In this document: positions 42,340 through 48,772 of the stretch, piece after piece
How positions within the stretch are numbered: position 1 is the stretch's first letter
Layout: each line of letters opens with the position of its first letter
Assembly (NCBI RefSeq): GCF_015644725.1
Contig: NZ_CP064795.1
Coordinates: forward strand, 1,486,501 to 1,550,500
Length of the DNA: 64,000 nt
Source: Salinimonas marina
GTDB lineage: Bacteria; Pseudomonadota; Gammaproteobacteria; Enterobacterales; Alteromonadaceae
Direction: 5' to 3'
The notes under the pieces: generated by a model
What the model was told of the DNA's origin: nothing
The model's input: the letters and a program-made list of their open reading frames with translations, nothing else
Databases searched by the model: none
Position numbers and translations under genes: made by a program

Positions 42340-42963
42340 TGTAAAAATATCTGTGTAAATGGCATTCTTATCATCTCCTTAGAAGGATATCAGAATGCCA
42401 ATATCAGACAAACTCATCGACCAACTGCTTGACGACTGTGATTCACCAGAAGACATTTTAGGCGAAGCTGGCCTCCTCAAGCAGCTTACCAAGAAGGTTG
42501 CTGAACGAGCGTTAGAAGCCGAAATGGAAGCCCATCTGGGCTACGCGCCCAACGATGCGGCTGGTAACAACAGCGGCAACTCTCGCAACGGTAAAACGAA
42601 GAAGAGTGTTCGCAGCACCAATGGTGATGTTGAACTCGATATTCCACGCGATCGCAACGGCAGTTTTGACCCCAAGTTAGTACGCAAAGGCGAACGTCAG
42701 CTAAACGGATTTGATGAGCGCATTGTTGCCCTTTACGCGCGCGGCATGACCACGCGGGATATTCAGGCTTACCTTGAAGAAGCTTACGGTGTTGAGGTCT
42801 CTGCCACCTTCATATCGCAGGTAACGAACGCGGTGATGGACGAGGTTAAGGCCTGGCAGCGTCGGCCGCTGGAAAAGCTTTACCCGGTGGTTTATTGGTA
42901 AGGCCTGAGATTTTCCGACACTTTTTATGGTAAAAATGTAACTCAAACCATAAGAGGTAAATC

Positions 42964-43260
42964 ATGGGTAAAGGCATTCGTTATTCAGACGAATTTAAGC
43001 AGGAAGCAGTGAACCAAGTGGTGGTTCATGGCTACAATGTCGCTGACGTAGCAGCGCGGCTCGATATCAGTACCAAGAGCCTTTACGGCTGGATGAAGTC
43101 CTTCTCAAAGCCGACCAGGCAGCGTAAAGAAGATGAAGACTTACGTGCAGAAGTTGCCAGACTGAAACGTGAGCTGAAGCGCGCCCAGCAAGAACGAGAC
43201 ATATTAAAGGAAGCCGCGGTGTTCTTTGCCGGCGAGTCAAAGAACGGTACCCGTTCGTAA
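42964..43260 (+). CDS. IS3 family transposase OrfA
   Basis: 98 residues with a helix-turn-helix (NVADVAARLDISTKSLYGWMKS) and a leucine-zipper-like helix (VARLKRELKRAQQERDILKEAA). It is the DNA-binding subunit. OrfB lies in the -1 frame, so the full transposase would be made by -1 ribosomal frameshifting near the OrfA end; the slippery site is not obvious. Confidence 0.93.
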   Translation: MGKGIRYSDEFKQEAVNQVVVHGYNVADVAARLDISTKSLYGWMKSFSKPTRQRKEDEDLRAEVARLKRELKRAQQERDILKEAAVFFAGESKNGTRS

Positions 43261-43913
43261 AATCTCGTAGTACCGATTACCCGGTGAGATTGTTGTGCCA
43301 GGCACTTGAACTACATCCCAGTGGTTATTATGAGTGGTTGCAGCGCCCTGAGTGTCAGCGTGATAAAGATGACAAGCGCTTGCTCGGTGCCATAAAGCAG
43401 TTCTGGCTGGAAAGCGGCGGCCATCATGGTTACCGCAATCTTCACCTGGATTTACTGGAAGCGAATATCCCGTGTGGGCGTGACCGTGTTTTACGACTGA
43501 TGCAACAAGCCAGTATTAAAGCCCAGCGCGGATACAATGCGCCCAAGGGACGCTACGGTGGGAAGCCAGACGTTGTAGCTGCCAACACACTAAATCGCGA
43601 TTTTACCGTCGCGGCCCCAAATCAGTGGTGGGTCAGTGACATTACCTATGTCCATACCCACGAAGGTTTTTTGTTTTTGGCTGTTGTAATGGACTTGTAC
43701 GCCCGGAATATCGTTGGTTGGTCGATGGGTGACAGGATGACAGAAGAGCTGGTGATGGACGCGCTAACCGCTGCCTACTGGCGGCGAAAACCGTCTGATA
43801 CGGTTTACTTGCATTCTGACCAAGGCTCTCAGTACAGTAGTCGCAGCTTCAGAAAGTTACTCAATACGTTGAATGTTAAACCCAGTATGAGTCGACGAGG
43901 AAACTGTTGGGAT

Positions 43914-44107
43914 ACAGAGATTATACTTACCAGTGCTGACAGTAATAATCTGACCCGTGCTGGGATTGACCTTGTGTCTTTGTGTTGACCTGTCGATTAT
44001 TGCTCGTCAGTTAAAGTTGGGATCATTCCAGTATCCGTGACCTAATAGGAGCATTGTTTTGCATCTTCAGTGTCCAGTCCGGTGGCTGGTTTACTGAGGA
44101 AAAACTG
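43914..44107 (+). ncRNA. candidate IS110 bridge RNA region
   Basis: IS110-group elements encode a structured bridge RNA in the non-coding left end whose loops pair with target and donor. Here GTTGGGAT at 44016-44023 equals the last eight bases of the target left of the insertion (43906-43913). ATAGGAGC at 44045-44052 equals 45170-45177 in the element's right end. The order, target match then donor match, is as in IS621. Ends of the RNA and its fold are not determined. Confidence 0.6.
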
Positions 44108-45160
44108 ATGAACCGTGATCATTTAAATAATCAACTCACCCTCGGAGTTGATACTCACCTTACTAGCCATGTTGCTGTTCTAATTGATAATATTGGTAAG
44201 GTTGTCGATACGCAGGAGTTTCCGGTCTGTTATATTGGATATGAGAAGCTTTTCAACTGGGCAAAATCATTTGGAAATATTAGACAGGCTGGACTGGAGG
44301 GAACCGGCACTTACGGTGCTGGTCTTTGCAAGTTCCTAGAGGAAAAGGGTTTGAAAGTCTTTGAAGTCAATCGGCCAAACAGGGCGAAACGTCGACTCAG
44401 AGGAAAATCAGATCCCACTGACGCTGAGAATGCAGCGCGCTCAGTCCTGGCGAATGAGTCAACAGCCATCCCTAAGTCACATGATGGAATTGTCGAAGCC
44501 TTGAGGTATCTTGTTGTCGCCCGGAAAAGCGCTGTTAAAGCCCGTACTCAGGCCATCAATCAAATCAGAGCGCTTCTAGTCACAGCCCCTGAGCAAGTTA
44601 GGGTAGCATGTTATGTCCCATCGACCCGTCTATGTATAGCTGCTTGTAAACAAATTCAGAGCAACGACAGTGATGTGCGGTTAAGAACTTTAGCGGCAAT
44701 GCTCAATCTACTAGCCGATCGTTGGCTTAGGCTAACTGAAGAACTCAGACTAATAGGAAAACGTCTGACAGAGCTGACAAAATCAACAGCCTGCCACTTA
44801 CTTGAACAATTTGGTGTTGGCCCATACGTCGCTGCAACTCTCATGGTCACAGCCGGTGATAATCCGACCCGGCTTCATAAAGAGTCTTCATTTGCGGCGC
44901 TGTGTGGTGTAAATCCGCTAGAAGCATCATCAGGTAAAACTCAACGTCATCGTCTTAACCGAGGCGGCTCAAGGGATGCTAATAATGCGCTATGGACAGT
45001 AGCCCTCATTAGGATGCGAAGTGACCCAAGGACGAGGGTTTATGCGGCTAAGCGAACAGCTGAGGGTAAATCAATTAAAGAGATCCAACGATGTCTCAAA
45101 CGCTACATTGCTAGAGAGCTTTACCCGATAATGGTATCCGATCTATCCATACTAACGTGA
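44108..45160 (+). CDS. IS110 family transposase (DEDD recombinase)
   Basis: 350 residues from ATG 44108, with GAGG 8 bases upstream. The N-terminal RuvC-like DEDD domain starts LTLGVDTHLTSHVAVLID, with acids in GLEGTGTYG and KSDPTDAENAARS. The C-terminal Tnp_20 domain contains FGVGPYVAATLMV and FAALCGVNP followed by the Ser-bearing region SSGKTQRHRLNRGGSRDANNAL. It appears intact, so this element may still be active. Confidence 0.94.
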   Translation: MNRDHLNNQLTLGVDTHLTSHVAVLIDNIGKVVDTQEFPVCYIGYEKLFNWAKSFGNIRQAGLEGTGTYGAGLCKFLEEKGLKVFEVNRPNRAKRRLRGKSDPTDAENAARSVLANESTAIPKSHDGIVEALRYLVVARKSAVKARTQAINQIRALLVTAPEQVRVACYVPSTRLCIAACKQIQSNDSDVRLRTLAAMLNLLADRWLRLTEELRLIGKRLTELTKSTACHLLEQFGVGPYVAATLMVTAGDNPTRLHKESSFAALCGVNPLEASSGKTQRHRLNRGGSRDANNALWTVALIRMRSDPRTRVYAAKRTAEGKSIKEIQRCLKRYIARELYPIMVSDLSILT

Positions 45161-46297
45161 TAGCTTGACATAGGAGCGTCAATGCGGTAGCGGAGAGCTT
45201 CTTTAGCAATCTGAAGAAGGAAAAAATCAGGCGTATCAAGTACAAGACCAGAGATGATGGGCGACAAGCGATGTTTCATTACATCGAAATGTTCTACAAT
45301 CCGAAACGTCGTCATACTGCTAACGGACGTACGTCACCAACAGAATATGATAAGCAGTACTTTAAGGACATAGAGAGTGTCTAGCAAAGTCAGGCCTTAC
45401 CATATCTCGACTGTTTAGTGGTTCGTAGTCGTGACTCTGGCGTGGTACAAAATAAATCCGTGTATCTGGCGCTTGGCATTAATACCGACGGTGAAAAAGA
45501 GTTATTAGGTCTGTGGATGGCCCAAACTGAGGGAGCCAAGTTCTGGTTGTCGGTGATGAACGAGCTTAAAAACCGTGGTGTGGAGGATATCTTCATCGCC
45601 TGCTGTGATGGCCTCAAAGGCTTCCCGGAAGCCATTGAAGCGGTATACCCGACAACACAGGTGCAGCTGTGTATCGTGCATCAAATTCGCCACTCGCTGC
45701 GCTACGTGAACTGGAAGCAGCGTAAGATTATCGCGGCGGATTTAAAACTGATTTATGGTGCGGCCACTCGTGCTGAAGCCGAGCAGGCCCTCGAGCTTTT
45801 TGCAGAAAAATGGGATTGCGAACACCCGACCATCAGCCGCTCCTGGCGGGCGAACTGGGAACGTTTATGCGTATTCTTCGATTATCCGACCGAGATACGC
45901 AAGGCCATTTACACCACCAATGCGATTGAGTCGCTGAACGCGTCCCTGCGAAAAATCACCAAGACCCGCCGGTCGTTCCCGAACTACGAAGCCGTCATGA
46001 AGGTGTTGTACCTAGCCTTGCATCAGGCTTCGAAAAAGTGGACGATGCCCATACGCAACTGGAAACCGGCCATGGCGCAGTTCGAGATTATGTACCAGGA
46101 TCGGATTTAACAGTGCAATCAGCCATTTACACAAAATCTTTTACAGTCTCATGATTTGAAATGTACAATCGGTAGCTATTTTTAGACGGCATTAGATTAT
46201 GTTAAGTTGTATTAGCTTACTTGTGCTAGCTTAGACTTGACCTGACAACTAAGCGTCTTTAAGTTGCGCCGCCGATTGAATTTGAGTTAGGTTATCT

Positions 46298-47986
46298 TCA
46301 AATGAGCGTATTGATAGAGTTCACAACCATAGTGATCAACTCATTTCCCTTTGCGACTTTGTTGGTTGCACCCAAGCTGCCGTAATCTCGCTGGACAATT
46401 CTTAACACTTTATTAATAACATCTTCATCTATTAAATCTAGATTCAGGGTCTCAATGCTATTAACAGTCGGCATTCCTTTTAGCACTACATAGCTAACAC
46501 CAAAGGCAACGTAGTATTTGAGGTCACTTCTAACACCCGTGTCAATGGTGTTATTTGCCTTCAAATTACTATCAACCTTTTGGAGTACAGCAACGCATTT
46601 GTAATAAACTTCAAGAGCGATTTTATCGGAAAATAATTTATTGTACTCTTCATCGTTGCTCAACAGCGTAGAAGGCCTTGCTCGCGCGACATTTGGCTTA
46701 TGCAACAATATCGACATCAAGGCCTGCCCTAAAAGGGAAATAGATATAATTTTGGCAATGGGCTTGCCAGAGTTTTTATAGTAATTCTTCCTTCGATCAT
46801 AATATAGCCCCTTAGTCACAAAATAATCTTCAATATCTCGATGTATCTTGTCAGTACCTCTTAACGATACCTGCGGAATCTTAGTTTGGCTGTTAGTTGC
46901 CTTTATAATGCGGTCTCTGCTTTCTTCAGTTTCAGGACAAATTACACGAACTAAAACATGTCGCTCTCTACAAGGTTTTTCGCTATTTTGACTTCCATTA
47001 AAGAAGTTAAATATCTCAGTAGACGTTTGTAAGCCATTTACAATTTCAGGGTTTTCAATCGCTAATTCTTTGCCTGAAGTGAAAATTTTTGTGCCAAGAA
47101 TAGTTACTCCGTTATTCAACCACCAAAAGTCTTCGTTTTTAGGTTCTTCTAAGGTATTTTGGATATCTTTATTTACGTTGACATTCCCTTGATAGTCCCT
47201 CACGTTGGATTCGAATATAGATTTATTAAGCTGTTTTTCCTCATTGCAGATAAAGCTATATAAATTCTTCAATTCAACTAGCGCAATATATAACCCTTTA
47301 TCAGGTGAAAAGCCTTCTTTTGTTACCAAACTGAAAGTGCTTTTGGGTTGCTTTCTTGCTTCTTCAAGTAGTTCTTTTGCACCCCAGAACGTAAAAGATG
47401 CTTCGCTTCCTGAGAGAGTTGCTTGTATATCTTCTACAACTCGTTCGCCCTTTATTATGCATTTATTGTGAATAGTAGATTTGTTTCCTTTTGTAGCGTA
47501 ATAGCACTTTATATTCAATTTAGGAAACTTTGTTACACTCGCTTTGATAATTTTTCGGATTAATTCAAAGTGGGCTAGTAATTGTGGATTGTATTCTCCA
47601 TCAAAGGTATCTAAGTCCACATTTAGGTTGAGCATATCGTTCAAGGTTCTTTGAATCGATTCAATTGCCCTTTCTTTAAAAGAGGCTGAATATTTAGTTT
47701 GAAAATAATGAACCTCAATTACCGAGTGACGCTTCAGAAAATCAAAGTTATCAGGTTCTTCATTAATCAGCTCTCCATCTATAAATATGTAAGCACTGTC
47801 GATTCCACCATCATCTGGCCCATCAAGTATACCTAGTTCAATTTCTTCGAAACTTAGATCTTTATCCTTTAAGATATTCTCAACAGAGAAGACTTCAAAA
47901 AAATCACTATCATTTCCTACGTACTCTAGTTCTGACATTTGTCCAGTAACTAGTGCTTCAATAAGTGCCAAGTCGTTATTTGCCAT
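46298..47986 (-). CDS. AIPR family (abortive infection phage resistance) protein
   Basis: 562 residues. The AIPR domain spans ~235-530: FESNVRDYQGNVNVNKDIQ, FWWLNNGVTILG and ENPEIVNGLQTS are its hallmark blocks. The N-terminal part has a PD-(D/E)xK-like pattern, D59-GGID-63 followed by HYFQTKYS (Q96-T-K98), suggesting a nuclease fold. AIPR proteins are linked to abortive infection against phage and often sit in defence islands. No partner gene is adjacent here. It is AT-rich relative to core genes and lies at the right end of the ssrA island. The start ATG 47986 is the first in frame. Confidence 0.88.
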   Translation of the reverse strand: MANNDLALIEALVTGQMSELEYVGNDSDFFEVFSVENILKDKDLSFEEIELGILDGPDDGGIDSAYIFIDGELINEEPDNFDFLKRHSVIEVHYFQTKYSASFKERAIESIQRTLNDMLNLNVDLDTFDGEYNPQLLAHFELIRKIIKASVTKFPKLNIKCYYATKGNKSTIHNKCIIKGERVVEDIQATLSGSEASFTFWGAKELLEEARKQPKSTFSLVTKEGFSPDKGLYIALVELKNLYSFICNEEKQLNKSIFESNVRDYQGNVNVNKDIQNTLEEPKNEDFWWLNNGVTILGTKIFTSGKELAIENPEIVNGLQTSTEIFNFFNGSQNSEKPCRERHVLVRVICPETEESRDRIIKATNSQTKIPQVSLRGTDKIHRDIEDYFVTKGLYYDRRKNYYKNSGKPIAKIISISLLGQALMSILLHKPNVARARPSTLLSNDEEYNKLFSDKIALEVYYKCVAVLQKVDSNLKANNTIDTGVRSDLKYYVAFGVSYVVLKGMPTVNSIETLNLDLIDEDVINKVLRIVQRDYGSLGATNKVAKGNELITMVVNSINTLI

Positions 47987-48414: not shown

Positions 48415-48446
48415 GTGGTGGAGCTGGCGGGATTTGAACCCGCGTC
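48415..48446 (-). repeat. attachment-site repeat within ssrA 3' end
   Basis: 32 bp identical to 38520-38551. It forms the 3' end of ssrA (T-loop GGTTCAAATCC and acceptor with CCA). Confidence 0.93.
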
Positions 48447-48772
48447 CAGAAAATGTCTACTATTGGTACTACATGCTTAGTTTGTCTTTTGTTTAACTAC
48501 TTTGGACCCCGACAAACAGGGTTCCTGGTAGCTGTCCTGATACTGTTTCGCGGTTCAACCTCAGGAAAGTTTCCCTCGCTAGTTTGCTTATATGACCTTC
48601 CGAATCCACGCTAGCAAACTAAGCTGTGGTGGAAGGGCCTATACCGGTTATTAAGCGGCTAGTGCGTAGTTTTCGTCGTTTGCGACTATTTAAAGCGGAT
48701 TTTTTAAGAGGCAATCCGCACCTCTGCATGCACCTCCAGCGTCCTAGATCCTGTCGAATCCTAATCAGCCCC
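48416..48772 (-). ncRNA. ssrA: transfer-messenger RNA (tmRNA)
   Basis: 357 nt on the minus strand. The 5' end GGGGCTGATTAGGATTCGAC and the 3' end with GGTTCAAATCCCGCC and CCA form the tRNA-like half. The tag frame (48651-48683) starts at GCA and reads ANDENYALAA followed by two stops, the standard enterobacterial-type tag. It rescues stalled ribosomes with SmpB, whose gene lies 1.6 kb upstream on the same strand. The 3' end is the insertion site of the island. Confidence 0.97.

Follow-up and report, generated by a model that had tools for sequence, protein, structure and literature searches.

The IS110 family of insertion sequences and its RNA mechanism have already been published (PMC11187229, PMC11208160, PMC11208158), and two of its members are compared with the present locus here. 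ISEc21 is guided by an RNA (the seekRNA) to the codons that surround the second D in IS3 transposase genes (Siddiquee et al., PMC11187229). The same paper reports the natural redirection of an ISEc21 relative, ISMch6, in which the guide changes with the target. IS621 employs an RNA with two loops holding target and donor guides, together with a DEDD and Ser recombinase site (PMC11208160, PMC11208158). Here we describe an IS110-family element at positions 43914-45180 of a 64,000-nucleotide stretch of the Salinimonas marina genome (contig NZ_CP064795.1, positions 1,486,501 to 1,550,500; hereafter the window). Judged from its sequence, the element very probably carries a bridge RNA that guides insertion into the codons C-W-D|N of IS3 transposase genes, the vertical bar marking the insertion point. 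All features lie on the + strand unless stated otherwise.

The element begins with ACAGAG and ends with GGAGCGTC. These limits rest on BLAST copies, are the same in relatives, and replace the interval 43906-45177 given in an earlier sequence-only reading of this DNA. Three places in the S. marina genome hold copies, with 100% identity by BLAST and identical ends. A noncoding left end of 194 bases (43914-44107), the predicted bridge RNA or seekRNA, precedes a recombinase gene of 350 amino acids (44108-45160, ATG at 44108), and the stop codon is followed only by the 20-base right end (45161-45180), which contains a -35 box, TTGACA (45165-45170), and the donor sequence CATAGGAGCGTC. This is the IS110 arrangement; the downstream noncoding region of the IS1111 group is absent. 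The recombinase scores above the cut-offs for Pfam PF01548 and PF02371 and for NCBIfam NF033542 (IS110 equivalog). Its E64, D102, D105 and S275 align to E60, D102, D105 and S241 of IS621 (PDB 8wt6), the chain numbering of which is offset by two as inferred from the alignment, and D15 is assigned by the GVDTH motif only. Both the DEDD RuvC-like domain and the Tnp domain with its catalytic Ser, as expected of IS110, are present. The earlier view that the element is of the IS110 type and that its left end resembles a bridge RNA is borne out by these profiles, by the alignment of related left ends and by a covarying stem, both described below.

With ISEc21 the element shares the IS110 type, an upstream noncoding region, the lack of target duplication, a candidate circle-junction promoter, an insertion site within the catalytic domain encoded by IS3 transposase genes, and a guide order in which the bottom-strand match lies 5' of the top-strand match (PMC11187229). 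With IS621 it shares the two predicted loops with target and donor guides, the DEDD and Ser site (PMC11208160, PMC11208158), a -35 in the right end with a -10-like box in the left end, and a predicted handshake in which position 7 pairs with the strand that comes in (PMC11208158). The recombinase is 42% identical to the protein of L063, a locus annotated as ISEc21 family, and weakly similar to that of IS621 (E 1e-9). Whereas the target of ISEc21 is the second D (HSD|QG), the present element lies near the E, at C-W-D|N, and the guides differ accordingly; IS621 targets REP and has a CT core common to target and donor, whereas here the target is a set of IS3 codons and the cores are A-Y in the target and T-C in the donor.

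In IS3 orfB the insertion separates Asp from Asn in the codons for RGNCW-D|N-xxx-E, four codons ahead of the Glu. In the window, flank sequence places the left half of the target (codons G-N-C-W-D) at 43899-43913 and the right half (N-A-V-A-E) at 45181-45195. The flanks of the element's own copies read RGNCW-GAT on the left and AAY-GCN-x-x-GAR on the right, which is CWD|NxxxE of the IS3 transposase OrfB, and all three copies sit in IS3 genes at this site, in agreement with the earlier proposal that an IS3 transposase gene is the natural target. Their hosts are of two kinds, one shared by the window and L001 and the other that of L003. In the host gene that is interrupted in the window, the D of HSD and the target-site E have 35 residues between them. 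A D-35-E spacing is typical of IS3 transposases; because the spacing observed here fits it, we take the Glu of NxxxE to be the third catalytic residue of the IS3 DDE triad.

An uninterrupted IS3 gene beside the ISEc21 locus L063 (...GGAAACTGCTGGGAT|AACAGCCC..., ...GGAAACTGCTGGGATAACAGCCCAATGGAGCGC) equals the joined flanks of the related locus L071, indicating that insertion is exact and without target duplication. At L060 and L074 the left flank ends in GAC, not GAT, and the right end stays GTC. This variation on the left beside a constant right end places the cut after the Asp codon, so that the Y belongs to the target and the right-hand C to the element. A register one base earlier, with the T given to the element and the C to the target, was ruled out, as both loci keep the left C and the right end GTC. 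Neither an uninterrupted copy of the window's host IS3 nor an unoccupied GGNAAYTGYTGGGAYAAY / GNCWDN site in exact spelling was found in the own genome. A search of 60 genomes with the host flank of L003 found no uninterrupted copy of its own host, only relatives 71-76% alike and one 30-base match, and a search of five genomes with the host flank of L006 found no uninterrupted host copy.

Related loci were drawn from the genome collection, other relatives, plasmids, E. coli genomes and further copies in the same records (30 of 35 such places were looked at). The 28 plasmid and E. coli regions were picked for diversity and not at random, many near-identical plasmid hits being left aside, and L065, L115, L117 and L118 (identical to L006 or from its genome) and L116 (identical to L007) were dropped as duplicates. 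The nearest relatives are L006 from Rheinheimera pacifica (94%), L007 from Pseudoalteromonas luteoviolacea (73%), L009 (68%) and also L011. The sequence-only reading had held that copies with the same left end at unrelated targets would speak against it. In this non-random set of 29 loci, own copies included, 28 lie at the IS3 codons and a single one, L075, elsewhere. Both flanks fall at CWD|NxxxE in 18 loci, in different IS3 genes of hosts from Alteromonadales to Burkholderiales; sequence-specific insertion without target duplication, a mark of IS110, was accordingly seen at 18/29 loci and at the L071 site preserved beside L063. The other 10 have one or an altered flank there: the N codon is missing from the right flank of L006, L079 has the N codon and lacks the E, the right end of L073 is lost, and five loci (L061, L070, L104, L011 and L059) show the right flank alone, with NxxxE in each. 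The right flank of L076 is in IS3 and its left flank is the end of another element, and L078 is in IS3 with altered ends, right-end and left-end letters being joined. The left flanks of L076 and L078 hold right-end letters, as tandem or circle-junction remnants. In L061, which has no left end, the GCTGGGAT of the target directly joins the letters that follow the GCTGGGAT of the guide, as if a deletion had fused the target and guide copies. A class-wide protein search at E 1e-60 matched the own genome alone (1/369), a pattern search matched two of 394 (the own genome and, apparently, the L006 genome again), and two remote matches in phage records were not used.

Guides were compared in an alignment (A2) of 18 left ends, drawn from 22 for which coordinates were available; L071, L073, L086 and L075 were omitted as near copies or decayed. 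The strings from which the sequence-only reading built its guides are positioned as it claimed: GTTGGGAT at 43906-43913 (the last eight left-flank bases) and again at 44016-44023, ATAGGAGC at 44045-44052 and in the right end at 45170-45177, and GCTGGGAT at 43959-43966. It gave chance odds of about 1 in 350 for each match; in 20,000 first-order Markov copies of the left end, the probability of the exact 8-mer is 0.0059 for GTTGGGAT and 0.001 for ATAGGAGC, and with up to one mismatch GTTGGGAT occurs in 0.13 of 5,000 such copies. With single-sequence odds this modest, it is conservation that decides. The left donor guide (LDG) was correctly recognised: AATAGGAGC at 44044-44052 equals the right end CATAGGAGC except for its first base, and ATAGGAGC is found in 18/18 left ends of A2, the omitted L086 having ATAGGAGA instead. 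The left target guide (LTG), previously placed at the 44016 8-mer, is better assigned to GTGCTGGGAT at 43957-43966, which matches the left target, TGYTGGGAY, as read on the top strand. It is present in 17/18 left ends (L100 has TTGCTGGGAT) and in the omitted L071 and L086, while L075 has TTGCTGGGAT and the decayed L073 has GTGCTAGGAT. The GCTGGGAT once noted as a second near match does exist; its role is not secondary, since it is part of this conserved guide.

The right-hand guides, formerly described as not obvious, can now be named. The right target guide (RTG), TGTGTTGACC at 43981-43990, complements GTC|AAY of the right junction; its GTTGACC occurs in 17/18 left ends (L078 has ATTGACC) and is missing from the omitted L073. 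The right donor guide (RDG), CTTCAGTGTCC at 44065-44075, complements the first bases of the left end, and GTGTCC is found in all 18 left ends. Left-end bases 1-5 are paired with the RDG in 96.6% of cells, with eight cells changed on both sides and a covariation score reached by 0/500 shuffles. RNAalifold itself paired these bases, with letters covarying in three and five sequences at two columns, which we read as donor-guide complementarity and not as an RNA stem. What is expected of a bridge RNA or seekRNA, namely guides for either strand of the target and of the donor, is present at the sequence level, the level on which the anatomy, the target, the stem covariation and the guide-target correspondence also stand.

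The target loop is closed by a stem whose 5' arm (43936-43950) pairs with its 3' arm (43995-44010). In A2, 91.9% of cells are paired, compared with 19-47% for slid partners, and 11/15 pairs are changed on both sides (as many in 11/500 shuffles). The covariation score is 0.610 vs 0.234 in shuffles (0/500 as high). The arms vary among the left ends while the guide segments stay conserved, and duplex folding forms the stem in 18/18 sequences at -18.5 to -30.9 kcal/mol. For the donor-loop stem the duplex test gave a mean of -14.7 kcal/mol vs -11.1 kcal/mol for letter-shuffled arms (0/200 as low). Folding with related elements, as the sequence-only reading had suggested, thus supports the target-loop stem; the consensus that RNAalifold drew from A2 was weakly structured overall and lacked the donor-loop stem. 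An Rfam scan of the window at the gathering threshold returned the tmRNA only, and the left end had no match.

By analogy with ISEc21 and IS621, transcription, RNA binding, circle formation and recombination would proceed as follows. The excised ends would join and create a promoter from which the left end is transcribed into the bridge RNA. A donor-binding loop would carry the LDG AAUAGGAGC for the right end and the RDG CUUCAGUGUCC for the left end, and the RNA would guide the joined ends to the IS3 transposase codons C-W-D|N, where the DEDD/Ser recombinase would exchange strands 3' of the Asp codon and leave the target unduplicated. When the ends of the window's element are abutted, TTGACA stands 18 bases from a -10-like box, TATACT (43922-43927). 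The string sought in the right ends, TTGACATAGGAGCG, occurs in 18/18 elements, as does TTGACA, and a -10-like hexamer (4-5 of 6) lies 16-21 bases on across the joined ends. The left end of the linear element has no promoter-like match; one lies elsewhere in the element, at 44164 (1.7 expected). What bears on a putative circular intermediate are these promoter-like letters at the abutted ends, read with no control, and the joined right-end and left-end letters of L078.

Eleven element types with differing targets, the window's included, were compared with 20,000 permutations. The match of each LTG to its own left target averaged 8.41/9, against 5.47 off the diagonal (0/20,000 permutations), and that of each RTG to its own right junction 7.64 against 5.82 (0/20,000); the own fit was best or tied in 10/11 rows for the LTG. 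In the Kozakia relative L064, for example, the target reads TTACGAC|AATGCC.

Three other explanations were weighed against a bridge RNA that reads C-W-D|N through GTGCTGGGAT. That the 8-mer GTTGGGAT at 44016-44023 is the working left target guide of the window's element has in its favour that it fits the window's own left target at 8/8 bases, the last eight of GTGCTGGGAT fitting at all but one. This is nevertheless very unlikely, since 16/18 left ends with the same kind of target lack the 8-mer, which is confined to the window and its 94% relative L006 in A2 (2/18) and absent from the four omitted left ends; it sits in an unconserved variable linker 3' of the target-loop stem, outside the loop that this covarying stem closes; and the third own copy, L003, is inserted in GCTGGGAT. 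To judge from the sequences, the match at 44016 is fortuitous or redundant.

Alternatively, the left end might be a regulatory leader or a protein-bound DNA end, with the recombinase itself reading the target. It does precede the gene, as a leader would, and small RNAs and a leader structure are reported to regulate the IS110-type transposase of ISPpu9 (PMC8450116). The guide and target letters, however, covary across relatives, and ISEc21 requires its noncoding region and can be reprogrammed (PMC11187229), which leaves this reading with hardly any probability. Nor do we give more weight to hitch-hiking, in which one old insertion spread with its IS3 host and the shared site is inherited. The window and L001 are indeed in related IS3 copies, with left flanks 93% alike over 134 bases, but the IS3 host genes of L003, L007, L009, L062 and others differ, uninterrupted relatives of one host gene are present in the genus and beside ISEc21, and the Asp codon of the left flank varies between GAT and GAC.

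A bridge RNA guiding insertion at C-W-D|N remains the preferred reading, although several observations weigh against it. In the window the LTG has one mismatch to its target (C against T; T is found in 9/21 CWD left targets), and the RDG has one mismatch among the five left-end bases, shared with L006. The RDG pairs changed on both sides number two, which is chance level (285/500 shuffles as many). Further pair types in the target-loop stem are matched by 60/500 shuffles, and the shuffle tests leave sequence relatedness in place. The whole left end of the window folds at z -2.29 (3/200 shuffles as low), a moderate stability, and a shorter piece of it at z -0.38 (59/200 as low). L075 lies outside IS3 at a partly matching site, GTGTGGAT|AAG; L100, a second copy of the L075 element in the same plasmid, is in IS3. 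The promoter was chosen as the best of seven spacings with no shuffle control, and 3/18 elements need a spacing of 21. Among the eleven types the own RTG fit was best in just 7/11 rows, the LTG of L114 fits the target of another type better than its own, and some circularity enters through the left limits of certain single-copy types, which were drawn with the help of the reading frame and, in part, by eye.

Beyond the CWDN group, 20 distinct sites of relatives were retrieved, and at 12 of them both flanks belong to an interrupted gene of transposase type. Seven of these were assigned by profile: L064 and L114 to the IS3-type integrase core, L080 to IS630, L113 to a DDE_3 domain, L081 to the IS5 type, L106 to TnpB and L112 to IS110. 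The profiles were run on fragments, where NCBIfam matches fell below whole-protein cut-offs and Pfam matches above theirs. L063, L101, L105, L109 and L111 were read from sequence. Two of the other sites, L103 and L107, show IS3 on the right flank alone, and six do not interrupt a transposase or are unclear (L082, L084/L095, L097, L102, L108 and L110).

The target core is AT or AC and the donor core TC in 13/13 types, none of which shows the CT core common to target and donor that marks the IS621 subgroup. In examining the bases that face these cores, guides were placed purely by how well they complement the right target or the left end, without preference for GT or GA. The single best place of the RTG is then followed by GA in 10/13 types (a tie includes one in L097 and L110; none in L063). 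In those ten, donor pairing is seen for the bases opposite positions 9 and 8 in 10/10 and for the base opposite position 7 in 9/10 (not L064), and position 8 fails against the target in 10/10. For the RDG the best place is followed by GT in 10/13 types (a tie in the window; none in the ISEc21-like L063 and L105). L114 is uncounted here: of its five tied places just one has GT after it, and that one lies outside the donor loop. In those ten, target pairing is seen for the bases opposite 9, 8 and 7 in 10/10, and position 8 fails against the donor in 10/10. We infer from these letters that IS621-style handshake pairing may be extended by one position, through position 8.

It is conceivable, at somewhat less than an even chance, that the ISEc21-like branch of IS110 forms a guild of RNA-guided parasites of transposable elements. 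Guide changes would then have led its members to catalytic-site codons of IS3 (near the second D and near the E), IS630, IS5-type, IS605 TnpB and IS110 genes. Their target (A-Y) and donor (T-C) cores would be unlike, the core-facing bases of RTG and RDG matching the incoming strand in a handshake through position 8. Two distant relatives are worth recording separately. L112, a 44% relative in an Embleya record, lies after the KTD codons of another IS110 gene, in its own family's D..D stretch, and in Streptomyces globisporus the 47% relative L106 splits an IS605 TnpB gene at CEN|QTIVIEDL.

The surroundings of the element form a nest of three (42395-46110), IS110 within IS3 within a Mutator/IS256-type transposase gene, the two halves of which (42395-42898 and 45418-46107) both match the Transposase_mut profile. 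The host IS3-family element, for which NF033516 was matched, spans about 42896-45402, with orfA at 42964-43260 and orfB split by the IS110 element; by eye its terminal repeats are TGGTAAGGCCTGA/TCAGGCCTTACCA, plus TAT repeats. Beyond the nest, at 46298-47986 (-) and 48416-48772 (-), a gene for an AIPR-domain protein adjoins the tmRNA gene. The AIPR family is linked to abortive infection, and this gene is perhaps part of an island at the tmRNA.

That the element adds one more member to the known bridge-RNA (IS110) family, its guide map now corrected, is well supported. The suggestion of a new RNA-guided recombinase consequently holds for the family member alone, since the family, the RNA mechanism and an IS3 target, that of ISEc21, had been published. 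Among the literature matches listed, in their accessible text and with subscription journals and preprints outside the scope, there was no description of a CWD|N target or of a transposase-hunting branch. The locus provides a complete, testable guide map for one IS110 element, in which the left target guide has been corrected, and indicates how an RNA-guided parasite can find a dependable landing site in catalytic codons that a transposase family conserves. The guide-target pairs of its relatives amount to a data set of natural reprogramming, bearing on which positions must pair and whether the cores may differ. This wider pattern among relatives is a more interesting lead than the single element.

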